A DNA stretch of 64,000 nt, taken from the NCBI RefSeq assembly GCF_009765755.1, contig NZ_LMUV01000002.1, forward strand, positions 643,693 to 707,692, written 5' to 3'. The notes under the pieces are model-generated. The model made no database searches. It was not told the origin of the DNA and worked only from the letters and a program-made list of their open reading frames with translations. This stretch comes from Rhodanobacter sp. L36 (lineage in GTDB: Bacteria > Pseudomonadota > Gammaproteobacteria > Xanthomonadales > Rhodanobacteraceae). Positions 2,933 through 16,259 of this stretch are shown here, in pieces. The stretch's first letter is position 1, and every line of letters starts with the position of its first letter. The position numbers and the translations under genes are program-made.

Positions 2933-3541
2933 CAAAAGTCAACCGCCAGCGCCAAGGCGCCGCAACGGCAACGCGGTCGCGAACGCGTGGCATCGCTGCT
3001 CGATGCCGCCGCGGCATGCTTCGTCGACAAAGGTTACGAAGCAGCCACGATGACCGAGATCGCAGCGCGTGCCGGCGCGGCGATCGGTTCGCTCTACCAG
3101 TTTTTTCCAACCAAGGAAGCGCTGGCGCATGCGCTGATGACGCAGTACACGCAATCCCTTCAGCAACACCTGCAGCAGCTTGCGGCGCAGTCCGGCGACT
3201 GGAATGACGACCAGCTCGGCACGCAGCTGATTCGCCTGCTGGTCGCCTTCCGCCGCCGACATCCGGCTTTTGCCGTGCTCGCCGAATCCCTCGCCTCGTT
3301 GCCTGCGGTGCGTGGCTTGGCGATCCGCCAACACCTGCGCGAAGGTTTGCAGGAACTACTCGGCCAGCGCATCACCCACCTGTCGTCCAGCGAGCTGCAT
3401 GCCGCCGCGGTCGTCGTGCTGCAGTTGATGAAGGCCGCGGTGGCGCTCAGCGCGGAGGTCGGCCTGGTGGGTCGCAAGTCGGCACTGGAGCAACTTGAAC
3501 GGGCGCTGCAGCTCTATCTGGCTTCGCTTGCGAAACGCTGA
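2918..3541 (+). CDS. TetR/AcrR family transcriptional regulator
   Basis: About 207 residues. The N-terminal helix-turn-helix spans roughly residues 20-65: [20 protein letters not shown], then the recognition part [21 protein letters not shown] and the trailing [10 protein letters not shown], all classic TetR features. The remaining residues form the helical ligand-binding and dimer domain (C-terminal TetR type). Two in-frame ATGs, 2918 and 2924, are both possible, and neither has a well-spaced ribosome site, so the start is uncertain by two codons. The gene is divergent from the isochorismatase-fold gene and its start sits inside an operator-like palindrome, implying autoregulation. The ligand is unknown. 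Confidence 0.9.
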
Positions 3542-3660: not shown

Positions 3661-3690
3661 TTGACACGCTGCAAACACATCGCTTACGGT
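3661..3690 (+). promoter_or_regulatory. Candidate promoter of the leu/ilv operon
   Basis: Perfect -35 hexamer TTGACA at 3661-3666, an 18-bp spacer, then TACGGT at 3685-3690 as a weak -10. An AT-rich block (TTTCAATTTAAACTG) lies just upstream and could act as an UP element. The expected transcription start falls at about 3697, the A of the leader-peptide ATG. Confidence 0.5.
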
Positions 3691-3696
3691 CCAAGG

Positions 3697-3834
3697 ATGT
3701 CGCAACGCAACAACCCCTGCCGCTTCGTCCATATGCATCGTCTTTCGACGGTGAGCGGGCTGCTGCAGCTTCGCGGCACGCTTCTTCTTACCCTTGTACT
3801 CGTACTCCTTATTACCAACGGAGGTGCGGGCTGA
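3697..3834 (+). CDS. Leader peptide of the leu/ilv operon (attenuation control)
   Basis: A 45-residue open frame, ATG to TGA. Its second half carries the run LLLTLVLVLLI (seven Leu, two Val, one Ile, one Thr), exactly the amino acids made by the operon below. The codons are CTT, CTC, GTA and ATT, which are uncommon in this GC-rich window, so a shortage of charged Leu or Val tRNA should stall ribosomes here. No well-spaced Shine-Dalgarno precedes the ATG; the predicted transcript may begin at or next to it. An internal ATG at 3733 is an alternative start and keeps all control codons. The stop codon lies two bases after the antiterminator strand, as in classical amino acid attenuators. Confidence 0.85.
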   Translation: MSQRNNPCRFVHMHRLSTVSGLLQLRGTLLLTLVLVLLITNGGAG

Positions 3835-3913
3835 GGGCGTAATCCAGGTAACCAGAAACAAACCTGAAGATTCCCAAAGAACCCCGCACCGAAAACGGAT
3901 GCGGGGTTTTTTT
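3823..3913 (+). terminator. Attenuator: antiterminator/terminator switch of the leu/ilv operon
   Basis: The terminator stem is CCCCGCACCG (3882-3891), loop AAAA, then CGG-A-TGCGGGG (3896-3906), followed by seven T at 3907-3913. The octamer GGTGCGGG at 3823-3830, at the end of the leader peptide, is perfectly complementary to CCCGCACC at 3883-3890, so pairing of these two destroys the terminator. A ribosome stalled on the Leu/Val codons (3781-3813) leaves 3823-3830 free and permits read-through. A ribosome reaching the stop at 3832 covers it and lets the terminator form. The leuA start follows 35 bases later. Confidence 0.85.
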
Positions 3914-3947
3914 ATGCCTTCGGCGACGCACACACAGCGGAGCCAAC

Positions 3948-5540
3948 ATGAAAAGCATCGACCAGCAGCAAGCCCCGACCAGCGAAGCCGATGTAGCGGC
4001 CGATCGCGTGCGGATCTTCGACACCACCTTGCGCGATGGAGAACAGGCGCCGGGATTCTCGATGGATCGGCGGGCCAAACTGCGCATGGCGCTCGCGCTC
4101 GAAGCGCTGGGTGTGGACGTGCTCGAAGCCGGTTTCCCGCAGGCGTCGCCGGATGATTTCGGTGCGGTCGCGGAAATCGCCAAGGCGCTCAGGCACACCA
4201 CGGTCTGTGGTCTTGCGCGCTGTCAGAACGGCGACATCGACAGCGCGGCACGCGCGCTCGAGGCCGCTCGTCACTCACGCATCCACCTGTTCATTTCGAC
4301 CAGCCCGCTGCATCGCGAACACAAGCTCGGGATGAGCAAGGCGCAGGTATTCGATGCGGCCATCGCATCCATCGAGCGAGCGCGCCACTTGTGCGACGAA
4401 GTCGAATTCTCCGCTGAAGACGCCACCCGTACCGAGCCGGAATTTCTCGCCGAGATTTTCAGCGCCGCGGTGGCCGCTGGCGCCACCACGCTCAACGCGC
4501 CGGACACGGTCGGCTACAACACACCGGGCGAGATGGCGGATTTTTTCGCCTACCTGCGCCGTCATGTGCAAGGCGCGGACAAAGTGATTTTTTCCAGCCA
4601 CTGTCACGACGATCTCGGCATGGCCGTCGCCAACACGCTCGCGTCAATCAGCGCCGGCGTGCGCCAGGTGGAATGCACGATCAACGGTATCGGCGAGCGC
4701 GCTGGCAACGCGTCGCTGGAAGAAATCGTGATGGCGCTGAAAGTGCGCGCGCCCTACTTCGGCATCGACACGCGCATCGACACGCGCCGCCTGTACGGCA
4801 CATCGAAGCTGTTGACCGAACTGACCGGCCAACCGGTGCAGCGCAACAAGGCAATTGTCGGCGCCAACGCATTCGCGCACGAATCCGGTATCCATCAGCA
4901 CGGCATGCTGAAGCATCGCGGCACCTACGAAATCATGCGGCCGCAGGACGTCGGCATCGCCGAGACGACGCTGGTTCTGGGCAAGCATTCCGGCCGTGCC
5001 GCGCTGCGCCAGCGCCTGCAGACGCTCGGCCACACACCGGCGGATGCAGCGCTGGATGAAATTTTCGCGCGCTTCAAGGTGCTCGCCGATCGCGGGCGCG
5101 AGCTGCATGACGAAGATCTGCACGCGCTGGCGCGAGGCGAGGATCCCGATGCCACCGGTCCGTGGCGCATCGTGCAACTGCACAGCAGCTCGCATCTGGG
5201 CAGCGCGTCGGCATCGGTGAAACTCGCGCACGAGCACGGCCACGAAGTCAGCGAAGCGGCGATCGGCGACGGCCCGGTCGATGCGGTGCTGCGCGCCATT
5301 GAACGCGCCACCGGCACCGCGCTCGAACTCACGCGATTCCAGGTCGACGCGATGAGCGAAGGCGGCGATGCACACGGCCACGCGCAACTGCGAGCACGCC
5401 ATGCGTCGCGCGAGTGGCGCGGTGACGGCGTCAGCACCGACATCGTCGAAGCCACCGCGCTGGCCGCGCTTTCCATCGTCAACCGGATCGAACGGCAGAC
5501 GCCGGTCGCCATCAAGCACCCACAGGGAGTGACCGCATGA
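3948..5540 (+). CDS. leuA: 2-isopropylmalate synthase LeuA
   Basis: Condenses acetyl-CoA with 2-oxoisovalerate, the committed step of leucine synthesis. 530 residues, the long form with a C-terminal LeuA dimer domain that normally binds leucine for feedback inhibition. The N-terminal TIM-barrel signature [15 protein letters not shown] is at about residues 22-36, and the metal-binding [15 protein letters not shown] segment is at about 220. The start ATG follows GCGGAGCCAAC, a good ribosome site, 35 bases after the attenuator. It is the first structural gene of the ten-gene operon and overlaps ilvE as ATGA. Identity is certain. Confidence 0.97.
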
Positions 5541-6532
5541 ACGCAGCTTTTCTCTGGCACAACGGCCGGATCAAACCGTGGGCCGAGGCCAACGTCCACG
5601 TCAGCACGCACGCGCTGCATTACGGCTCGTCGGTGTTCGAAGGCGAGCGCGTATACGCAACACCCAAAGGGCCCGCGTACTTCCGTCTTGCCGAACACAC
5701 GCAGAGGTTGTTCGAGTCGGCGCGCATCTACGAAATCGAGATCGGTTACAGCGAAGATGAGATCAATGCCGCCTGCCTCGAACTGATTCGTGTGAACGAC
5801 ATGTCGTCCGCTTATGTGCGACCGATCGTGTTTCGCGGAGCGGGCGGACTTGGCGTGCTGCCGAGCAAAGGCGCGCCGGTGGAAGTGGCGATCATGGCGC
5901 TCAACTGGGGCGCGTATCTGGGCGAAGCAGCCGAGCGCGGCGCGGATGTCTGCGTGTCGTCATGGCAGAGGCCGGCGCCGAACACCATCCCGAGTTGGGC
6001 CAAGGCCGGCGGCAATTATCTGTCGAGCCAGTTGATCGGCATGGAGGCGCGACGCGGCGGCTACGACGAAGGCATCGCGCTCGGTCACAACGGCTTGCTG
6101 AGCGAAGGCGCCGGCGAGAATCTGTTCCTGGTCAAGCGCGGCAAGCTGCTCACGCCGCCGTCGAGCGCCGGCATCCTGGCCGGCATCACACGCGACGCGG
6201 TGATCACGCTCGCTGCGGACATGGGCATCGCGGTCGAGGAGCGCGACCTGCCGCGCGAATCGCTGTACACCGCCGACGAAGTGTTCATGACCGGCACCGC
6301 CGCGGAGATCACGCCGGTGCGTTCGGTCGATCGCAAGAACGTGGGCGCCGGCGTGCCCGGGCCAATCACTTGCGCGCTTCGACAGGCTTTCTTCGGTTTG
6401 TTCGATGGCCGAATCGAGGACCGCTGGAACTGGCTGAATTTTGTTGATGCGTCCGCCGCCAACGGCGCGTCGTCGCTGGCTCATACCCGCGCTCATGAAC
6501 GAGTGCACCAACCACTGGAGATCCCGGCGTGA
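5537..6532 (+). CDS. ilvE: Branched-chain amino acid aminotransferase IlvE
   Basis: PLP-dependent transamination giving Leu, Ile and Val from their 2-oxo acids. 331 residues, class IV aminotransferase. The PLP lysine is Lys156 in [11 protein letters not shown], and the substrate and phosphate region [12 protein letters not shown] and the C-terminal [12 protein letters not shown] are conserved. It has a tail of about 25 residues beyond the usual C-terminus (after the NWLNF segment). The start overlaps the leuA stop (ATGA) and the stop overlaps the leuC start (GTGA). Placing it between leuA and leuC lets a Leu-sensitive attenuator also set the last step for all three amino acids. Confidence 0.95.
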
Positions 6533-7944
6533 CCGCCAAGACCCTGTTCGAAAAAATCTGGGAGACGCATGTCGTCGCCGCCGAAACCGAGGCGACGCCA
6601 GCGATCCTCTATGTGGATTTGCATCTGGTGCATGAAGTCACTTCGCCACAGGCGTTCAGTGAATTGCGCGAGCGCGGACTGAAACTGCGGCGCCCCGATC
6701 GCATGCTGGCGACGCTGGATCACTCCACGCCGACACTTCCCGCGGCGGCGAACGGCGAACGTCCGTACGCCAACGACGAGGCGAAGGCACAGGTTGCGCA
6801 GCTGGAAACCAACTGTCGCGAATTCGGCATCGAACTGCATGGATGGGACAGCGCGGACCGCGGCATCGTGCACGTGATCGGGCCGGAACTCGGCGCAACG
6901 CAGCCGGGCATGACCATCGTCTGCGGCGACAGCCATACCTCCACGCACGGCGCATTCGGCGCACTCGCGTTCGGCATCGGCACCACCGAAGTCGGCCACG
7001 TGATGGCGACACAGTGCCTGCTGCAGAGAAAGGCAAAAACACTCGCGATCCATGTCGACGGCAAGCTGCCCGACGGCGTCGGCGCGAAGGACCTGATCCT
7101 GCACATCATCGGCAGCATCGGCGTGGACGGCGGCACCGGCCACGTCATCGAATATCGCGGCGCAGCGATCGAGGCGTTGTCGATGGACGAACGCATGACC
7201 GTCTGCAACATGTCGATCGAAGCCGGCGCGCGCGCCGGACTGATCGCACCGGACGATGTCACGTTCGACTGGTTGAAAGGTCGTCCGCACGCACCATCAG
7301 GTGCCGCATGGGACGAGGCAGTGATGCACTGGCGCGCACTGCGCACCGATGATGGCGCGGGCTTCGATCGCGAAGTGCGCATCAACGCCGCGGAGGTCAA
7401 ACCGACTGTTACCTACGGCACGCATCCGGGCATGGCGATCGCGATGGATGCGCCGGTGCCCGCTGCGCGCAATGTGCAGGAACGCCGTGCGCTCGACTAC
7501 ATGCGCAGCGAGGCCGGCAAGCCGATGCAGGGCACGCCGGTCGATGTGGTGTTCGTTGGCAGTTGCACCAATTCGCGACTCTCGGATCTGCGCGAAGCGG
7601 CGAGCGTGTTGAACGGCCGGCACGTTGCCAGCGGCGTGCGCATGCTGGTCGTGCCCGGTTCCGAAGCCGTGCGTCGCGACGCCGAGCGCGAAGGCCTGCA
7701 TCACGTGTTCACCAACGCCGGCGCCGAGTGGCGCGTGCCGGGTTGCTCGATGTGCATCGCGATGAATGGCGATCTCGCGCAACCGGGCCAACTCGTGGTC
7801 TCCACCTCCAATCGGAATTTCGAAGGTCGCCAAGGCAAGGGCGCACGCACCGTGCTGGCGAGCCCGGCGACCGCTGCGGCATCCGCGATCGCAGGACGTA
7901 TCGCCGATCCGCGCGAATATCTGACGCAGGAGCAAGCCGCATGA
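6529..7944 (+). CDS. leuC: 3-isopropylmalate dehydratase large subunit LeuC
   Basis: Aconitase-family large subunit that isomerises 2- to 3-isopropylmalate with LeuD. 471 residues. The three [4Fe-4S] cysteines are visible: Cys346 in [13 protein letters not shown] and Cys406/Cys409 in [13 protein letters not shown], the same spacing as E. coli LeuC. Start is GTG at 6529, overlapping the ilvE stop as GTGA and preceded by CTGGAGATCCCGGC. The stop overlaps leuD as ATGA, so the two subunits are translationally coupled. Identity is certain. Confidence 0.97.
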
Positions 7945-8525
7945 AGCCGGTCATCCGCCTCCACTCGCGCACCGCCGTGCTGGTCGACGAAAACATCGAC
8001 ACCGACCGCATCATTCCCGCGCGTTTCCTCACCACCACCGAGCGCAACGGTCTTGGCAAGTTGTGTTTCCACGACTGGCGTTACCAGCCGGACGGCAGCG
8101 ACAACCCGGCGTTTCCGCTCAACCAGCCGCAGGCGCGCGGTTGCGCGATCCTCGTCGCGGGGCGCAACTTCGGTTGTGGTTCGTCGCGCGAACACGCGCC
8201 GTGGGCACTGCTCGACTACGGCATCCACGCCGTGCTGTGCAGCGAGATCGCGGACATCTTCCGCAACAACGCGCTGAAGAACGGCCTGCTGGCGATCATG
8301 GTGAGCGAGGCCGAGCATCGCTGGCTGCTCGAGCATCCCGGCATCGAACTCTCCATCGACGTGCGCGACGAATACATCGCGCTGCCCGATGGCGGACGCA
8401 TCGCTTTCCAGCTCGAGCCGTTCGCGCGGCATTGCCTGCTCAACGGCGTCGACCAGCTCGGCTATCTGCTGCAGCACGCCGACGCCATCACCACTTACGA
8501 AAAATCTCTGGAGAAAGCCGCATGA
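7941..8525 (+). CDS. leuD: 3-isopropylmalate dehydratase small subunit LeuD
   Basis: Swivelling small subunit of isopropylmalate isomerase. 194 residues, beginning [20 protein letters not shown]. The family motif [15 protein letters not shown], which binds substrate, is present near residue 72. ATG at 7941 is fixed by the ATGA overlap with leuC; the frame stays open upstream inside leuC, but that part reads no known domain. It ends in another ATGA overlap, with leuB. Identity is certain. Confidence 0.97.
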
Positions 8526-9619
8526 AAGCGCATGTCGTCACCCTGCCCGGCGATGGCGTCGGTCCGGAAGTCACCGCCGCCGCCGTGGCCGTATTGCATG
8601 CCGTGGCCGCGCGCTACGGGCACGAATTCAGCTTCGACGAACAGCTGATCGGCGGGGCCGCGATCGACGCCACCGGCGAACCACTGCCTACCGCATCCCT
8701 TGCCGCATGCAAGGCCGCCGACGCCGTATTGCTCGGTGCCGTCGGCGGCCCGAAGTGGTCCGATCCGAATGCCAAGGTTCGCCCGGAGCAGGGCTTGCTC
8801 GCGTTGCGCGCCGCACTCGGCGTCTATGCCAACCTGCGCCCTCTGACGGTGCATCCATCGCTCGCTGCGTTGTCGCCGCTGAAAAACGAAAAGCTGAAGA
8901 ACGTCGACGTGTTGTTCGTGCGCGAACTCACCGGCGGCGCGTACTTCGGCGCGAAGACACGCACCGCCGATACCGCGACCGACGAATGCAAGTACACCGT
9001 CATGGAAATCGAGCGCGTGGTGCGTCGTGCGTTCGACCTGGCGCGCGGACGCCGTCGTCATGTCACCTCGGTCGACAAGGCCAACGTGCTGGAAACCTCG
9101 CGGCTGTGGCGCAGCACGGTGCAGCGCATCGCCGCCGACTATCCGGATGTCACGGTCGAGCACCAGCTGGTCGATTCGATGGCGATGCTGCTGCTGACGC
9201 AGCCGTCGCGCTACGACGTGGTGGTCACGGAAAACCTGTTCGGCGACATCCTCACCGATGAAGCCGCCGCGCTCGCCGGCTCGCTCGGCTTGCTGCCATC
9301 CGCATCGCTGGGCGATGGTTCGGCCGGCTTGTACGAACCGATCCATGGCTCCGCGCCGGACATCGCCGGCCAGGGCGTCGCCAATCCGATCGGCGCGATT
9401 CTTTCCGCGGCGATGTTGCTGCGCCATTCGCTGCAACTCGAAGCCGAAGCAGTCGCGATCGAAGCCGCCGTCGACCAGGTGCTGCGCAACGGACCGCACA
9501 CGCGTGACATCGGTGGCGACGCCGGCACCGACACGGTGCGCGACGCCGTGCTTGCCGCGGTGGAAGAACACGCCGATGCCGCCGATTCCTTTTTCGCCGG
9601 AGCCCGCGCATGCGGATGA
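8522..9619 (+). CDS. leuB: 3-isopropylmalate dehydrogenase LeuB
   Basis: NAD-dependent oxidative decarboxylation of 3-isopropylmalate, the third leucine-specific step. 365 residues, beginning [17 protein letters not shown], with the substrate loop RELTGGAYFG, the TDECKYTVMEIERV segment and the metal-binding ENLFGDILTDEAAALAGSLG. The start overlaps the leuD stop as ATGA; the open frame upstream of 8522 is spurious. It is followed by a 93-base gap with a terminator-like hairpin before ilvD, the longest gap in the operon. Confidence 0.97.
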   Translation: MKAHVVTLPGDGVGPEVTAAAVAVLHAVAARYGHEFSFDEQLIGGAAIDATGEPLPTASLAACKAADAVLLGAVGGPKWSDPNAKVRPEQGLLALRAALGVYANLRPLTVHPSLAALSPLKNEKLKNVDVLFVRELTGGAYFGAKTRTADTATDECKYTVMEIERVVRRAFDLARGRRRHVTSVDKANVLETSRLWRSTVQRIAADYPDVTVEHQLVDSMAMLLLTQPSRYDVVVTENLFGDILTDEAAALAGSLGLLPSASLGDGSAGLYEPIHGSAPDIAGQGVANPIGAILSAAMLLRHSLQLEAEAVAIEAAVDQVLRNGPHTRDIGGDAGTDTVRDAVLAAVEEHADAADSFFAGARACG

Positions 9620-9640
9620 CGGCACACGCTTCCCCATGGT

Positions 9641-9668
9641 TGGACACACGGAGGTGTCCATTCTTTTT
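9641..9668 (+). terminator. Hairpin with T-run between leuB and ilvD
   Basis: TGGACAC, loop ACGGAG, GTGTCCA, then TTCTTTTT: a 7-bp stem followed by a T-rich tract in the only sizeable gap of the operon. It looks like a weak intrinsic terminator that could lower expression of the ilv half relative to the leu half, or separate two transcripts. No convincing promoter is visible between it and ilvD. Confidence 0.45.
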
Positions 9669-9712
9669 CCGCCACGGAATGACTTCTTTTTCCACGACGA
9701 CACGGAACTAGC

Positions 9713-11431
9713 ATGCGCAGTGATGTGATGAAAACCGGGCCCGATCGTGCGCCAGCGCGCGCGATGCTTCGCGCCACCGGACTGGACGACGCAGACATCG
9801 CCAAGCCGCTGGTTGCGGTCGTGCATACCTGGTCCAACGTGAGTCCGTGCAACCTCAACCTGCGCGAACTGGCACAGGCCGCGATCGAAGGCGTGCGCGC
9901 CGCCGGCGGTACGCCGGTCGAGTTCAACACGATTGCCGTCACCGACGGCATCGCGATGGGCACGCCGGGCATGCGCGCGTCGCTGGTCAGTCGCGAGGTG
10001 ATCGCCGATTCGATCGAGCTGGCAGTGGACGGCCATTCGCTCGACGCAATGGTGGTGCTTTGCGGCTGCGACAAGACGATTCCCGCCGCCGCGATGGCGA
10101 TGGCGCGATTGAATATTCCATCGGTCGCACTCTACGGCGGCACCATCGCGCACGGCACGCACGACCAGCATCCGATCACCATCCAGCAGGTGTTCGAAGC
10201 GGTCGGTGCGCACGGCGCGGGCAAGATCAGCGACGCCGAACTCACCTCGGTCGAACGTGATGCCTGCCCCGGTGCCGGTGCATGCGGCGGGCAGTTCACT
10301 GCCAATACGATGGCGATGGTGCTGTCCACGCTGGGCTTGTCGCCGATGGGTTTCAACGACATTCCGGCCACGCACCCCGCCAAGTCCGCGGCAGCGAAGC
10401 GTTGCGGCGAACTGGTGATGGAATGCTTCGCCGCCCAGCGCACGCCACGCGAATTGCTGACGCGCACCTCGCTGCGCAACGCCGCGCGCATGGTCGCCGC
10501 GACGGCGGGTTCCACCAATGCCGTGCTGCATCTGCTGGCGATCGCGCGCGAAGCCGGCGTCGAGTGGACGCTGGAAGATTTCGAACCTGCATCGGCCGAC
10601 ACGCCGGTGATCGCCGATCTGTTGCCCGGCGGTCGCTACACCGCGGTGGAAATGTTCGGCGCGGGTGGCAGTGCGCGCGTGGCGCAGGAACTGATCAGCG
10701 CCGGCATGCTGGAAGACACGCCCACCGTCACCGGCCGCAGTCTGTTCGAAGAAGCGGCCGCCGCGCCGCGCACCGACAATCAACATGTCGTGCTTCCGGT
10801 CAGCGCGCCGCTGAAACCGCGCGGCGGTTATTCGATTCTCTACGGCAACCTCGCACCGGAAGGCTGCATCCTCAAACTGGCCGGCAAGGGCACGACGCAT
10901 TTCGAAGGCGTTGCGCGCGTGTTCGAAAGCGAGGAGCACGCGTTTGCCGCCGTGCAGGGCGGCACCCTGGTCAAGGGCGACGTCGTCGTGATCCGCAACG
11001 AAGGCCCGGCCGGCGGACCCGGCATGCGCGAGATGCTCGGTGTCACCGCCGCGCTGATCGGCCGTGGCCTGGGCGACGACGTGGCGCTGATCACCGACGG
11101 CCGTTTCAGTGGCGCCACGCATGGATTCATGGTCGGCCACATCGCACCCGAAGCAGCACGCGGCGGCCCGATCGGTTTGCTGAAAGATGGCGACCGCATC
11201 GTGATCGACGCCGCCAGCCGCGAGATTTCCACCGACGCCGATCTCACCGAGCGCCGCACCCACTGGCATCCGCCGCAACCGAAAGTGAGTCACGGCGCAC
11301 TGGCCAAGTACGCCTTGCTCGTCGGCTCCGCCTCGGACGGCGCCAGCACCCATCCCTCATCGTCGCCGGTACGTTCAGCCGTCTCGACGTCCAAACATCC
11401 CAACCAGAAAAACGCAGGAGTCTCCGCATGA
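9713..11431 (+). CDS. ilvD: Dihydroxy-acid dehydratase IlvD
   Basis: Fe-S dehydratase forming 2-oxoisovalerate and 2-oxo-3-methylvalerate. 572 residues. Conserved Cys-containing blocks are [20 protein letters not shown] and [16 protein letters not shown], and the C-terminal [16 protein letters not shown] is intact. The length fits the shorter IlvD group, with a Ser-rich tail of about 25 residues that is unusual. ATG at 9713 is taken as start, and a second in-frame ATG at 9728 ([13 protein letters not shown]) is possible. The stop overlaps ilvC as ATGA. It acts right after IlvC in both Ile and Val routes. Confidence 0.95.
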
Positions 11432-12453
11432 GCAGCACACCTTCCTCCGACACCCAGCCTTACGCCGGCCGCATCGCCGTACTCGGTTATGGCAGCCAGG
11501 GTCGCGCGCACGCGCTGAACCTGCGCGACTCCGGCCTCGACGTGGTGGTCGGCCTGCGGCCTGGCGGCCCGACCTGGAAAAAAGCCGAGGCCGACGGCTT
11601 CGCCGTGGTCGAACCGGCGCACGCCGTCAAAGGCGCCGACCTCGTCGCCGTGCTGACGCCGGACATGGTGCAGCCCGCGCTCTACAAGGACGCCATCGAA
11701 CCGAACATCAAACCCGGCGCCGCGTTGTTGTTCGCGCACGGTTTCAACATCCACTTCGGTCAGATCAAGCCGCGAGAAGACATCGACGTGATCCTGGTGG
11801 CACCGAAGGGACCGGGCGCACTCGTACGCACCGAGTACGAGCGCGGTCGTGGCGTGCCTTCCATCTGGGCCGTGCATCAAGACGTGAGTGGCGAAGCTGA
11901 AGCAAAGACCAAGGCCTACGCCGACGGCATCGGTGGTGGACGCGCCATGCTGATCAAGACCGACTTCAAGGAAGAGACCGAAACGGATTTGTTCGGCGAA
12001 CAGGCCGTGTTGTGCGGCGGTGCCAGCGAGTTGGTGATCAAGGGTTTCGAGACCCTCGTGGAAGCCGGTTACCAGCCGGAGATCGCGTATTACGAAGTGA
12101 TGCACGAACTGAAGCTGATCGTCGACCTGTTCTACGAAGGCGGCATCACCCGCATGCTGGAGTTCATCTCCGAAACCGCGCAGTACGGCGATTACGTGAG
12201 TGGTCCGCGCATCGTCGACGCCGACACCAAGGCGCGCATGAAGGCCGTGCTGACCGATATCCAGGACGGCACGTTCGCCAGGAACTGGACGGCTGAATAC
12301 AAGGCGGGCCTGCCGAACTACAAGAAGTTCAAGCAGGCCGATCTCGATCATCCGATCGAGAAAGTCGGCGCGAAGCTTCGCGCGCGCATGCCGTGGCTGC
12401 AGACGTCGAACGACAAACCCGCTGCTGCAACGCCGCTGAAAAAAGTTGGCTGA
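11428..12453 (+). CDS. ilvC: Ketol-acid reductoisomerase IlvC (class I)
   Basis: NADPH-dependent rearrangement and reduction of acetohydroxy acids. 341 residues, the short class I form. Rossmann motif [21 protein letters not shown] is near the N-terminus. The knotted C-terminal domain carries [19 protein letters not shown] and [17 protein letters not shown] with the Mg-binding Asp and Glu. ATG at 11428 overlaps the ilvD stop (ATGA) and follows GCAGGAGTCTCCGC, a clear ribosome site. The same frame is open far upstream but is only an antisense-free run inside ilvD. Confidence 0.97.
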
Positions 12454-12523
12454 CTTGCTTCAACTCACTTCCTTCCGCGTGGCGGGAAGTGAACTTTTTT
12501 ACGCACGAATGAAGGACCCCGAT

Positions 12524-14392
12524 GTGAACGCGCAACCACTGAAAGCCGAGATCGCCGCGGATCATCATCCACTGGCCGGTCAACCGATGACTGGTGCCGA
12601 GGTGATCGTGCAAGTGCTCGCCGACGAAGGCGTGAGTGTGATGTTCGGCTATTCCGGCGGCGCGATTCTGCCGGTGTATGACGCGCTGTTTCGCTACAAC
12701 GCCGAGCATCCCGGCGAAGGCGGCGTCGAGCCGATGCCGCTGATCGTGCCGGCCAACGAACAAGGCGCGGGTTTCATGGCGGCCGGCTATGCGCGCGCGT
12801 CGGGCAAGGTCGGCGTGGCGGTGGTCACGTCCGGCCCGGGCGCCACCAACATGGTGACGCCAGTGCGCGACTCGATGGCCGACTCCGTGCCACTGGTGGT
12901 GATCTGCGGCCAGGTCGCCCGGGCCTCGATCGGCAGTGATGCATTTCAGGAAGCGCCGATCAGCAACATCATGGGCGCGTGCGCGAAGCACGTGTTTCTG
13001 GTTACCGATCCGGGACGACTCGAAGTGACCCTGCGCACCGCGTTCGAGATCGCACGCAGCGGTCGGCCTGGCCCGGTGGTGATCGACGTGCCGAAGGATG
13101 TGCAGAACGCCGCGCTGAACTTTCGCGGCGAAGGTCGCCTGCCGATTCCGGGTTATCGCGCGCGCCTGCAAACGGTGCAGTCGGCGCATGTAAGTGATGC
13201 CGAATGTGCAACGTTCTTCGCGGCGCTGGAGCAATCGAAACGCCCGCTGATTTATGCAGGTGGTGGCCTGATCGCCTCCGGCGCATCCGCGGCACTGCGC
13301 GCGTTCGTCGATGACTTCGGTCTGCCGGTCACCACCACGCTGATGGGTCTGGGCGCGTTCGACACCACCGATTCGCTCGCGTTGCACATGCTTGGCATGC
13401 ACGGCACCGCATACGCGAACTACGCCGTGGACGATTGCGACTTCATGCTGACACTGGGCGCGCGCTTCGACGATCGCGTGGCCGGCGTACCGGACAAATT
13501 CGCGCCGACGGCGAAGTTCATCGCGCAGATCGATATCGATCCGGCCGAGATCGGCAAGGTCAAGCCGGTGCATTGGCATCACAACGGTGATCTGCGCCTG
13601 ACGCTGGATCGGTTGCGCCAGTACGGCACGCGCCACGGCTTTCGTCCGCGTCAGGACGGTCGCTATGCAACGTGGCACGCACAGATTGCCGAACTCAAGC
13701 GCGCCCACGCGATGAACTACGACCGCGACAGCGCGATGATCCAGCCGTATGCGGTGATCGAGGCGATCAATCGCATCACGCAGGGTCGCGCGGTGATCAG
13801 CACCGGCGTGGGCCAGCACCAGATGTGGGCGGCGCAATATTTCGATTTCCGAGAACCGCGGCATTGGCTCAGTTCCGGCTCGATGGGCACGATGGGTTTC
13901 GGCCTGCCAGCGGCCATCGGCGCGCAGTTCGCGCGGCCGGATGCCGTGGTGATCGACATCGATGGCGACTCCAGCATTCGCATGAACATCGGCGAGCTCG
14001 AAACCGTCACGACCTATGGTCTGCCAGTGAAAGTGGTGGTACTCAACAACGTCGGCGACGGCATGGTGCGGCAGTGGCAAAAACTGTTCTTCAAGGGCCG
14101 CTTCGCCAGCTCCGACAAAAGCCTGCATCGCAAGGACTTCATCAAGGCCGCACAGGCCGACGGTTTCGAATGGGCGAAGCGGCTGGAGAACAAGGACGAA
14201 CTGTCGAAAACCATCATTGACTTCCTCGCCTTCGACGGCCCGGCATTTCTCGAAGTGATGATCGATCCGGATGCCGGGGTGTATCCGATGGTCGGACCCG
14301 GCGCGAGTTACGCACAGATGATCACCGGCGACTGCATCGCCTCGCGCCAGCAGGTCGCCGAAAGCGAAGCTGCGCGCGACGACATGTTCTGA
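12524..14392 (+). CDS. ilvB: Acetolactate synthase large subunit
   Basis: ThDP-dependent catalytic subunit forming acetolactate and acetohydroxybutyrate. About 622 residues: an N-terminal ThDP-pyrimidine domain from MTGAEVIVQVLADEGV with the catalytic Glu in VPANEQGAGFMAAGYAR, a central FAD-binding domain, and a C-terminal ThDP-PP domain with DGDSSIRMN and LNNVGDGMVRQWQ. I place the start at GTG 12524 because AAGGA lies seven bases upstream; an in-frame ATG at 12509 would add five residues. It could equally be called ilvG or ilvI. The small subunit follows six bases after the stop. Confidence 0.93.
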   Translation: MNAQPLKAEIAADHHPLAGQPMTGAEVIVQVLADEGVSVMFGYSGGAILPVYDALFRYNAEHPGEGGVEPMPLIVPANEQGAGFMAAGYARASGKVGVAVVTSGPGATNMVTPVRDSMADSVPLVVICGQVARASIGSDAFQEAPISNIMGACAKHVFLVTDPGRLEVTLRTAFEIARSGRPGPVVIDVPKDVQNAALNFRGEGRLPIPGYRARLQTVQSAHVSDAECATFFAALEQSKRPLIYAGGGLIASGASAALRAFVDDFGLPVTTTLMGLGAFDTTDSLALHMLGMHGTAYANYAVDDCDFMLTLGARFDDRVAGVPDKFAPTAKFIAQIDIDPAEIGKVKPVHWHHNGDLRLTLDRLRQYGTRHGFRPRQDGRYATWHAQIAELKRAHAMNYDRDSAMIQPYAVIEAINRITQGRAVISTGVGQHQMWAAQYFDFREPRHWLSSGSMGTMGFGLPAAIGAQFARPDAVVIDIDGDSSIRMNIGELETVTTYGLPVKVVVLNNVGDGMVRQWQKLFFKGRFASSDKSLHRKDFIKAAQADGFEWAKRLENKDELSKTIIDFLAFDGPAFLEVMIDPDAGVYPMVGPGASYAQMITGDCIASRQQVAESEAARDDMF

Positions 14393-14397
14393 TCAGG

Positions 14398-14670
14398 ATG
14401 ACGACGAACCACGCCATGCGCCACACACTTTCCATCCTGTTGCAGAACGAGGCCGGCGCGCTGGTCCGCGTGGCCGGCCTGTTTGCCGCGCGCAGCCACA
14501 ACATCGACTCACTCACCGTTGCTGCGACCAATGATCCGGCGATTTCCCAACTCACGCTGGTGGTTCACGGCGACGAAGACACGCTGGAACAGATCTTGCG
14601 GCAGACACGCAAGCTGATCGACGTACTCGACGTGATCACGCTGTCGCTGGTCGGCGACACGGTCGCCTGA
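14398..14670 (+). CDS. ilvN: Acetolactate synthase small (regulatory) subunit, ACT domain
   Basis: 90 residues, essentially one ACT domain: HTLSILLQNEAGALVRVAGLFAARSHNIDSL is the usual N-terminal half that binds the feedback amino acid. This is the short IlvM/IlvN size, without the C-terminal domain of IlvH-type subunits, so feedback control may be limited. It starts six bases after ilvB, preceded by GATCAGG, and lies 20 bases before ilvA. The name ilvM would be equally valid. Expected to bind the large subunit and raise its activity. Confidence 0.93.
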   Translation: MTTNHAMRHTLSILLQNEAGALVRVAGLFAARSHNIDSLTVAATNDPAISQLTLVVHGDEDTLEQILRQTRKLIDVLDVITLSLVGDTVA

Positions 14671-14690
14671 CCGATGACGGAACATCGCCC

Positions 14691-16259
14691 ATGAACGCGC
14701 ATGTGGAAGCGCGGCCGCCGACGCACCCAATGATTTCCGGCCGCGAGCTTTTGCGTCGCGCATCGACGGCACAGGTCTACGACGTGGCGCGCGAAACCGC
14801 GCTCGAATCCGCACCGCTGATGTCTGCTCGGCTGGCCTGCAACGTGCTGCTGAAACGCGAGGATCAGCAGCCGGTGTTTTCGTTCAAGCTGCGCGGCGCG
14901 TACAACCGCATGGTGCAACTCGACGCGTCGCAACGCGCGCGCGGCGTGATCGCCGCCTCCGCCGGCAACCACGCGCAAGGTGTGGCACTGGCCGCAGCGA
15001 AACTCGGCATCCGCGCCACCATCGTGATGCCGGTAACCGCGCCGCAAGTGAAGATCGATGCCGTTCGCCGCCTCGGTGGCGACGCGGTAAACATCGTGCT
15101 TGCCGGCGACTCATACAGCGATGCGCAGTTGGAAGCGGCACGTTTGCAATCCGTCGGGCTGCAGACGTTCGTGCATCCGTTCGACGACGCCGACGTGATC
15201 GCCGGCCAGGCCACCGTCGCGCTGGAAATCCTGAAACAGCATCCGGGTCCGTTGCACGCCGTGTTCGTGCCGGTCGGCGGTGGTGGCCTGCTCGCCGGGA
15301 TCGCGAGCTGCATCAAGTTGCTGCGACCCGAAGTGAAAGTGATCGGCGTGCAGGCAACGGATTCGAATGCGATGACGCAATCGCTCGCCGCTGGAAAACG
15401 CATCGCGTTGACCGACGTCGGCCTGTTCGCCGATGGCACGGCGGTGAAGCAGGTCGGCGAGCTCACCTTCGCGTTGTGCCGGCAATATGTCGACGACATG
15501 CTCACCGTCGACACCGACGCGATCTGCGCATCGATCCGCGACATCTACCAGGAAACCCGCAGCGTGCCGGAGCCAGCCGGCGCCCTGGCACTCGCCGGCC
15601 TGAAGCAATATGTCGCCACCCACGGCGCATGCGATGGTGCGCTGGTCGCTATCGTCTCGGGCGCCAACATGAATTTTGATCGGCTGCGCTTTGTCGCCGA
15701 GCGCGCCGAAGTCGGCGAGCAGCGCGAAGCGGTGTTTGCGGTGACGATCCCCGAACAGCGCGGCAGCTTCCGCCGCTTCTGCGCCGCGCTCGGTCAGCAC
15801 AGCATCACCGAGTTCAACTACCGCATCGGCGATGCCGCCCAGGCGCATCTGTTTGTCGGCGTGCAGACATCGCATCGCAGCGAACGCGAGGCGCTGATCG
15901 CCGCTTTCCATGCGCAGAATTTCGGCGTGCTCGACCTCACCGATGACGAGCTGGCCAAGCTGCACTTGCGACACATGATCGGTGGCCACTCCGCACTCGC
16001 GCACAACGAACGTCTCTACCGTTTCGAATTTCCGGAGCGGCCCGGCGCGTTGATCCGTTTCCTGCGCCACTTGCATCCGGACTGGAACGTGAGCCTGTTT
16101 CACTACCGCAACCACGGTGCCGACTATGGCCGCATCCTCGTCGGCATCCAGGTGCCCGACGACGAGCAGGCATTGTTCCAGCGCTTCCTCGACACGCTCG
16201 GCTATCCCTGCGTGGATGAAAGCGATCATCCGGCGTATCGGCTGCTGCTGCGCAAGTAA
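14691..16259 (+). CDS. ilvA: Threonine ammonia-lyase, biosynthetic (IlvA)
   Basis: PLP enzyme deaminating threonine to 2-oxobutyrate, the entry to isoleucine. 522 residues: a catalytic domain with the PLP lysine in FSFKLRGAYN, the Ser loop ASAGNHAQG and the phosphate loop VPVGGGGLLAG, then two C-terminal ACT-like regulatory domains (about residues 335-510) expected to bind Ile and Val. The length matches the feedback-regulated biosynthetic form, not the catabolic TdcB. It is the last gene of the operon, 20 bases after ilvN. Its substrate is made by thrB/thrC at the start of the window. Confidence 0.96.
   Translation: MNAHVEARPPTHPMISGRELLRRASTAQVYDVARETALESAPLMSARLACNVLLKREDQQPVFSFKLRGAYNRMVQLDASQRARGVIAASAGNHAQGVALAAAKLGIRATIVMPVTAPQVKIDAVRRLGGDAVNIVLAGDSYSDAQLEAARLQSVGLQTFVHPFDDADVIAGQATVALEILKQHPGPLHAVFVPVGGGGLLAGIASCIKLLRPEVKVIGVQATDSNAMTQSLAAGKRIALTDVGLFADGTAVKQVGELTFALCRQYVDDMLTVDTDAICASIRDIYQETRSVPEPAGALALAGLKQYVATHGACDGALVAIVSGANMNFDRLRFVAERAEVGEQREAVFAVTIPEQRGSFRRFCAALGQHSITEFNYRIGDAAQAHLFVGVQTSHRSEREALIAAFHAQNFGVLDLTDDELAKLHLRHMIGGHSALAHNERLYRFEFPERPGALIRFLRHLHPDWNVSLFHYRNHGADYGRILVGIQVPDDEQALFQRFLDTLGYPCVDESDHPAYRLLLRK

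Follow-up and report, generated by a model that had tools for sequence, protein, structure and literature searches.

A probable ribosome-mediated attenuator with an apparently leaderless leader peptide before the leu/ilv operon of Rhodanobacter sp. L36

The ten-gene leucine/isoleucine/valine (leu/ilv) operon in the window, that is, the whole stretch of 64,000 nucleotides of Rhodanobacter sp. L36 DNA that was analysed, is very probably controlled by a ribosome-mediated transcription attenuator whose RNA, judging from the sequence and its relatives, would start at or within one base of the leader peptide ATG. A short open reading frame in which codons for the regulated amino acids are clustered in a run precedes the biosynthetic genes, and a terminator lies between this frame and the first gene. 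In order, leuA is preceded by TTGACA, TACGGT, the ATG at 3697, a frame of 45 codons (from ATG 3697-3699 to TGA 3832-3834) and, after an intervening stretch, the seven-T terminator (Table 1). A preliminary description of this DNA had proposed such an attenuator from a 45-residue frame carrying LLLTLVLVLLI, a ten-gene operon downstream and a seven-T terminator. These features were recovered at 3697-3834 (run at 3781-3813), at 3948-16259 on the same strand and with the T-run at 3907-3913, respectively, and ribosome-mediated attenuation is supported by the frame, the run and the complementarity of segments 2 and 3, which were found in 81/81 close loci; among these relatives, checked for loss of the frame or of the complementarity, both are kept throughout. 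The preliminary description overlooked the 1:2 hairpin, the apparent leaderless nature of the leader and a codon choice that goes beyond rarity.

Locus, conservation and spread

Table 1. Coordinates of the leader, its predicted RNA elements and the operon genes in the window
Feature	Position	Strand	Basis
-35 element TTGACA	3661..3666	+	sequence; hexamer position in 81/81 close loci
-10-like element TACGGT, 18-base spacer	3685..3690	+	sequence; TAnnnT counts
45-aa leader peptide ORF; transcript predicted to start at its ATG or within one base of it	3697..3834	+	translation, length conservation, pN/pS
Control codons LLLTLVLVLLI (CTT/CTC, GTA, ATT)	3781..3813	+	translation, codon counts
Segment 1, 5' side of protector hairpin 1:2	3799..3808	+	fold; consensus
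Segment 2, pairing as 3' arm in 1:2 (3820-3830) and as 5' arm in the antiterminator (3823-3832)	3820..3832	+	sequence, fold
Inner part of the antiterminator, short helices GGG/CCC and CAGGT/ACCTG	3833..3877	+	fold
Segment 3, common to antiterminator and terminator (core 3883-3890)	3878..3891	+	sequence, fold, pairing
Intrinsic terminator, stem 3880-3891/3896-3908, T-run 3907-3913	3880..3913	+	fold
leuA, 2-isopropylmalate synthase	3948..5540	+	TIGR00973 above cut-off
ilvE, leuC, leuD, leuB, ilvD, ilvC, ilvB, acetolactate synthase small subunit, ilvA	5537..16259	+	

The genome of the window is 3.98 Mb in size, and the best matches of its LeuA, in the LeuA search, come mainly from Rhodanobacter and Dyella. 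The ten operon genes lie on one strand, with leuA first and ilvA last, and mostly overlap or nearly touch, the largest gap being the 93 bases between leuB and ilvD. The gene for the acetolactate synthase small subunit (14398-14670) encodes only 90 residues, which match no more than the first half of the profile usual for the family. Upstream of the leader, a gene that by eye encodes a TetR-type regulator (about 2960-3541, same strand) has its 3' end 119 bases before the -35 element.

The close set comprises 81 loci, namely the window and the best 80 of 284 confirmed LeuA relatives. In all 81 the -35 element, the frame, the control run, the antiterminator strand and the terminator are kept; the segment 2 motif GGnGGTGCGGG occurs exactly once in each searched region, and the terminator could be parsed every time. 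Since the same element stands before leuA in 80/80 fetched relatives (the best 80 of 284), its presence in the window is not a matter of chance. The sets are slightly redundant: L171 and L004 are one and the same locus, and L079 and L080 do not differ over the leader.

A covariance model, R1, built from 42 of the 81 close sequences (alignment A1), was used to scan 397 of the order's genomes with an E-value limit of 0.01. Matches were obtained in 306 genomes belonging to 79 of the order's 99 genera, and none in the remaining 91/397, under strict filters that lose weak matches. Seventy of the 306 matching genomes were read in sequence, with the fetched loci L112-L141 (30) left out: 40 loci hand-picked for diversity (hereafter "distant") and 30 further hand-picked loci, mostly from other families with weak matches. 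All 40 distant loci precede a leu/ilv gene (22 leuA, 6 ilvD, 12 ilvC), as do 28 of the further 30 (16 ilvD, 8 ilvC, 2 leuA, 2 ilvB-like), so that 68/70 read loci stand before leuA, ilvD, ilvC or ilvB-like genes. The two others, L223 and L228, have no leu/ilv gene beside the match and were excluded from the strand-pairing and the leader/promoter counts. The latter cover 148 loci (81 close, 40 distant and 27 far), with L221 left out as it has no ATG; the leader ATG was chosen blind to the promoter, as the in-frame ATG giving the length nearest to 45. In genome G041, the source of L203, some 5.4 kb of contig C9 (about 102.3-107.7 kb) hold three R1 matches, which are spread over both strands and lie close to divergent ilvD and leuA; the attenuator may have been duplicated there, one copy per operon.

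Searching the window's own genome with the model revealed no second copy of the attenuator, the remaining matches being the terminator's reverse strand and two at E of about 0.4. Other attenuators of this genome were sought as a control for leaderlessness; the roughly 600 bases upstream of hisG (L234) and of the better trpE match (L235) showed no obvious leader rich in His or Trp. An open reading frame just 5' of hisG resembles, by eye, a TrpR-type regulator.

Leader peptide, promoter and control codons

The leader has 45 codons in 75 of the 81 close loci, 46 in four, 50 in one and 43 in one. Over the 100 nearest pairs, pN/pS for codons 2-26 is 0.60 in the leader's own frame and 1.21 and 0.87 in the other two, while 100 codons of leuA give 0.16; as the own-frame value is the lowest of the three and yet above that of leuA, the pattern of substitution suggests a leader that is translated and weakly constrained. 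The N-terminus M-[STP]-[QH]-R is found in 81/81 close leaders (MSQRNS in 36), in 16/40 distant and in 3/27 far ones. The peptide end LITNGGAG is near-invariant in the close set and is replaced elsewhere by GAGRASV or other ends. A start at the second in-frame ATG (3733) was considered and rejected, as the close relatives share the ATG equivalent to 3697. In 11 ilvC-headed loci (L174, L180-L182, L185, L186, L188, L189 and L196-L198), whose peptides end in GAGRASV or similar, the stop codon lies 13 bases past segment 2 instead of one, and thus the geometry of a ribosome at the stop differs there.

The position of the promoter points to a transcript that begins with the leader itself. When the 70 bases upstream of each leader ATG were searched, the best or tied-best TTGACA-like hexamer was 36 or 37 bases away in 81/81 close loci (74 unique, 7 ties), and 35-38 bases away in 38/40 distant (one by tie) and 22/27 far loci; 141/148 loci therefore have a spacing consistent with a start at the leader ATG. 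A TAnnnT ending 4-9 bases before the ATG is present in 81/81 close, 24/40 distant and 3/27 far loci (108/148), so that support for a -10 element is good close to the window and poor further away. At the usual distance between a -10 element and the start of transcription, the predicted start falls at the leader ATG or one base before it. The words GGAG, GAGG or AGGA at -18 to -4 of the leader ATG were found in 0/81 close and 0/27 far loci and in 1/40 distant loci (L172), versus 16/18 leuA starts alignable from their first residue. In the window, AAGG, a word outside this chosen set, abuts the leader ATG and is too close to serve as a Shine-Dalgarno site. Taken together, the leader open reading frame is probably leaderless in the window and in most relatives examined. 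A simple pattern scan reported neither the leader promoter nor the leader terminator on the + strand, because the -10 element is weak and the stem is bulged; it did report sites at 3761-3778 on the + strand and at 3899-3883 on the - strand.

The codons of the run are strongly biased. In the 16 codons before segment 2, the 81 loci contain 546 Leu codons (CTT 258, CTC 284, CTG 4), Val is encoded by GTA in 155/166 cases and Ile by ATT in 110/117, while in leuA of the 80 relatives CTG makes up 2472/3526 Leu codons (70%), GTA 180/2898 Val codons and ATT 116/1862 Ile codons. CTG is ordinary in the front part of the leaders (131/237 Leu codons, 79 of 81 loci) and near-absent in the run, which makes the bias local to the run. 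The preliminary description had called the control codons uncommon; this holds for CTT, GTA and ATT, but not for CTC, which ranks second among the Leu codons of leuA and makes up 26% of those in four of the window's operon genes, so that the choice is not just one of rarity. An explanation by the 1:2 hairpin was also rejected: when 3778-3816 was recoded synonymously, the stability of the native fold was equalled or exceeded in 2000/2000 usage-weighted, 1576/2000 uniform and 1512/2000 CTT/CTC-GTA-ATT-restricted cases, and the bias persists outside the 1:2 stem (CTT 200, CTC 100, CTG 4).

Among 47 tRNA matches in the genome there is one gene each for tRNA-Leu with anticodons CAA, TAA, TAG, CAG and GAG, and one each for tRNA-Val with TAC, GAC and CAC. 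By the usual wobble rules a GAG anticodon reads CTT and CTC. The single tRNA-Leu(GAG) gene should thus serve both, and the run appears to take its Leu codons from one isoacceptor's set only. The idea that uncommon codons sharpen the response, put forward in the preliminary description, is too simple, as CTC is common, and Elf and Ehrenberg (PMC1183508) call the rare-codon account an oversimplification, arguing that the decisive factor is which isoacceptor loses its charging first. The codon pattern of the run fits this selective-charging idea. Two distant leaders, L163 and L194, have runs made mostly of CTA, with ATC and GTC, instead of CTT/CTC with GTA, possibly a switch of the sensed isoacceptor; leaders of the ilvC group carry some GTG in the run. 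The codon restriction is therefore not absolute across the order.

Competing hairpins and their co-variation

The preliminary description had noted perfect complementarity between the end of the leader frame and the 5' arm of the terminator, and both sequence and fold bear this out: GGTGCGGG (3823-3830) is perfectly complementary to CCCGCACC (3883-3890), which is shared with the terminator's 5' arm. The stop codon stands, as had been described, beside the antiterminator strand, with one base (C3831) between that strand and the TGA at 3832. The terminator hairpin has a predicted energy of -20.1 kcal/mol, which 0/200 shuffles reach (z -5.3). For 3807-3895 the predicted energy is -27.4 kcal/mol, with 3/200 shuffles as stable, and in this fold 3823-3830 pairs with 3883-3890 and 3831-3832 with 3878-3879. 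When 3773-3914 is folded, the 1:2 hairpin (3799-3808/3820-3830) is present and overlaps the control codons; being found beside 2:3 and 3:4, it completes the classical set of three hairpins. The 1:2 hairpin is the consensus fold of the 42 close sequences and has an equivalent in the 14 ilvC-headed loci of alignment A2; its pairs are mostly invariant and thus give little co-variation support. By eye, the inner AGGT...ACCT helix is kept in most rows of A1. Two close-set variants touch the terminator: L046 has a changed base in the 3' arm (GCGGGATTTT), which should weaken termination, and L041 has a base-pair change at the foot of the stem.

Pairing between segments 2 and 3 was counted in 147 of 149 loci that could be parsed without gaps (L183 and L203 left out), taking as segment 2 the G-run nearest to the expected place and preferring a run that follows a C. 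None of the five counted positions varies among the 81 close loci, so that co-variation support for 2:3 has to come from the distant loci. Over the 147 loci, position 3 is T-A in 121, A-T in 7 and C-G in 2, with 2 wobble and 15 unpaired; position 4 is G-C in 124 and T-A in 5, with 4 wobble and 14 unpaired; position 5 is unpaired in 15. Both strands changed together in L167 and in five loci like L206, and in L167, L226 and L227 the change at position 3 is matched by strand 4 as well. For the 27 distinct strand pairs the paired fraction is 0.67 versus a shuffled mean of 0.61, and 19/5000 shuffles reach the observed value; for all 66 loci outside the close set, which are not independent, the figures are 0.84 versus 0.76 and 0/5000. 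The compensatory changes suggested as a check in the preliminary description are consequently found in part: some distant loci show coordinated changes, but the close set does not vary and several far loci, such as L205, L211, L225 and L231, pair poorly. The antiterminator shares the terminator's 5' arm and shows compensatory change, which is weak in the most distant families. In the close set, position 3 of segment 3 is A in 81/81 loci and segment 2 can pair with it in all 81, while segment 4 offers no ungapped pairing to this A in 37/81 (C in 21, A in 16); the A seems to be held by the antiterminator.

Proposed mechanism, alternatives and known systems

According to the mechanism proposed, RNA polymerase would start at or within one base of the leader ATG, as the promoter spacing suggests, and a ribosome would load directly on the 5' end of the RNA, with no Shine-Dalgarno site. 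With ample charged leucyl-, valyl- and isoleucyl-tRNA, the ribosome would reach the stop at 3832 and cover segment 2; the 3:4 terminator would then form and transcription would end near 3907-3913. If charged tRNA for CTT/CTC (chiefly tRNA-Leu GAG), GTA or ATT ran short, the ribosome would stall in 3781-3813 and open the 1:2 hairpin, segment 2 would pair with segment 3, and the operon would be transcribed, as no terminator would form. When the leader is not translated, 1:2 would form and lead to termination. By analogy with known attenuators, such stalling and response to starvation are to be expected here.

The same attenuator could instead have an ordinary 5' untranslated region, with transcription starting further upstream and ribosomes initiating as usual. 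The poor -10 element, seen in just 24/40 distant and 3/27 far loci, the simple scan's failure to report a promoter and the AAGG directly before the window's ATG, outside the Shine-Dalgarno test, would all agree with this, but the -35-like hexamer keeps a nearly constant distance from the ATG in all close and most distant and far loci, Shine-Dalgarno words occur at 1/148 leader ATGs versus 16/18 leuA ATGs, and the AAGG is too close to be of use; an ordinary untranslated region is thus unlikely. It is improbable that the peptide encoded by the leader, or its terminated RNA, also acts in trans, as peTrpL and rnTrpL do in Sinorhizobium meliloti. The N-terminus shared by all close leaders and the low own-frame pN/pS could be read as signs of a peptide with a function of its own; the peptide nevertheless changes faster than LeuA (0.60 vs 0.16), and this N-terminus is absent from most distant and far leaders.

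Two further readings dispense with codon-dependent stalling. Arrest by the nascent peptide itself could be imagined, given a strongly hydrophobic run that adjoins the near-invariant LITNGGAG end in the close set, and it is nonetheless very improbable: the number and order of L/V/I codons vary, the C-terminal end becomes GAGRASV or others elsewhere, and the synonymous choice is nearly fixed. The invariance of the end extends to the wobble T of GGT, which pairs with segment 3, and this points to RNA and tRNA rather than to the peptide. The least credible reading is a plain terminator or a metabolite-binding leader RNA for which translation is irrelevant. A strong terminator does stand between promoter and leuA; however, the frame stays open and changes its length only in-frame (43, 45, 46 and 50 codons), the control run is biased, and no Rfam family matches the window at its gathering score. 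Ribosome-mediated attenuation with a probable start at, or within a base of, the leader ATG is therefore the reading retained.

In Rfam 15, no family attains its gathering score in the window, with 15 bits versus 50 for RF00512 (Leu_leader) and 21.7 bits versus 55 for RF00506 (Thr_leader), the latter on the terminator part only; as the element falls below every gathering score, routine annotation may miss it. Among the titles and abstract openings covered by a literature search, none concerned the element in this order; subscription literature lay mostly outside that search, and a prior description is possible. Vitreschak and others reportedly catalogued proteobacterial amino acid attenuators of this same class (FEMS Microbiol Lett, 2004), with relatives such as Xanthomonas said to be covered, so the catalogue may already list relatives from the order. 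We know of no leaderless attenuator leader in Gammaproteobacteria.

A wider reading, towards which the evidence leans to a modest degree, is that a whole gammaproteobacterial order uses leaderless leaders for its branched-chain operons, that in the window's family, at the least, the Leu codons of these leaders belong to one isoacceptor alone, the switch reading the charging of tRNA-Leu(GAG), and that the module has been kept at leuA, ilvD or ilvC through rearrangement of the operons. Its probability is lowered by the weak -10 element far from the window and by the CTA and GTG of some distant leaders. If it is true, the switch senses the charging of one tRNA and not the leucine supply in general. 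The depth of the comparison is what is useful here, as one attenuator can be traced through an order with differing operon heads beneath it. The element offers natural tests both of the selective-charging theory, in the near-exclusive CTT/CTC, GTA and ATT of the run as against codon usage downstream, and of the question whether attenuation can operate with a leader peptide lacking a ribosome-binding site.

The ilvGMEDA and leu leader peptides of E. coli and Salmonella are about 30 residues long. The element described here resembles those systems in its leader rich in the regulated amino acids, its biased control codons, its 1:2, 2:3 and 3:4 hairpins and its terminator before the first gene. 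It differs in its longer peptide (45 residues), in a run of CTT/CTC, GTA and ATT rather than CUA, in having one leader for both leu and ilv genes, and in the apparent lack of a Shine-Dalgarno site and of a 5' untranslated region. The leu control codons of attenuators of the E. coli/Salmonella type are discussed in PMC1183508. For Corynebacterium glutamicum ilvBNC, PMC11857589 describes a branched-chain leader whose start codon lies one nucleotide from the transcription start, with control codons CUU and GUA and a three-hairpin model; that peptide has 15 residues and belongs to another phylum. The attenuator RNA of S. meliloti trpLE(G) also begins with the leader ATG and is leaderless, according to PMC7298713, but it responds to tryptophan, encodes a 14-residue peptide, and both peptide and RNA act in trans. 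A similar account of attenuation, with a ribosome footprint of 26 nucleotides, is given for Mycobacterium tuberculosis ilvB1 in PMC13236596. Set beside these systems, the mechanism proposed for Rhodanobacter is classical and of a known kind, and its points of interest are the apparent leaderless design and the isoacceptor-restricted codons.
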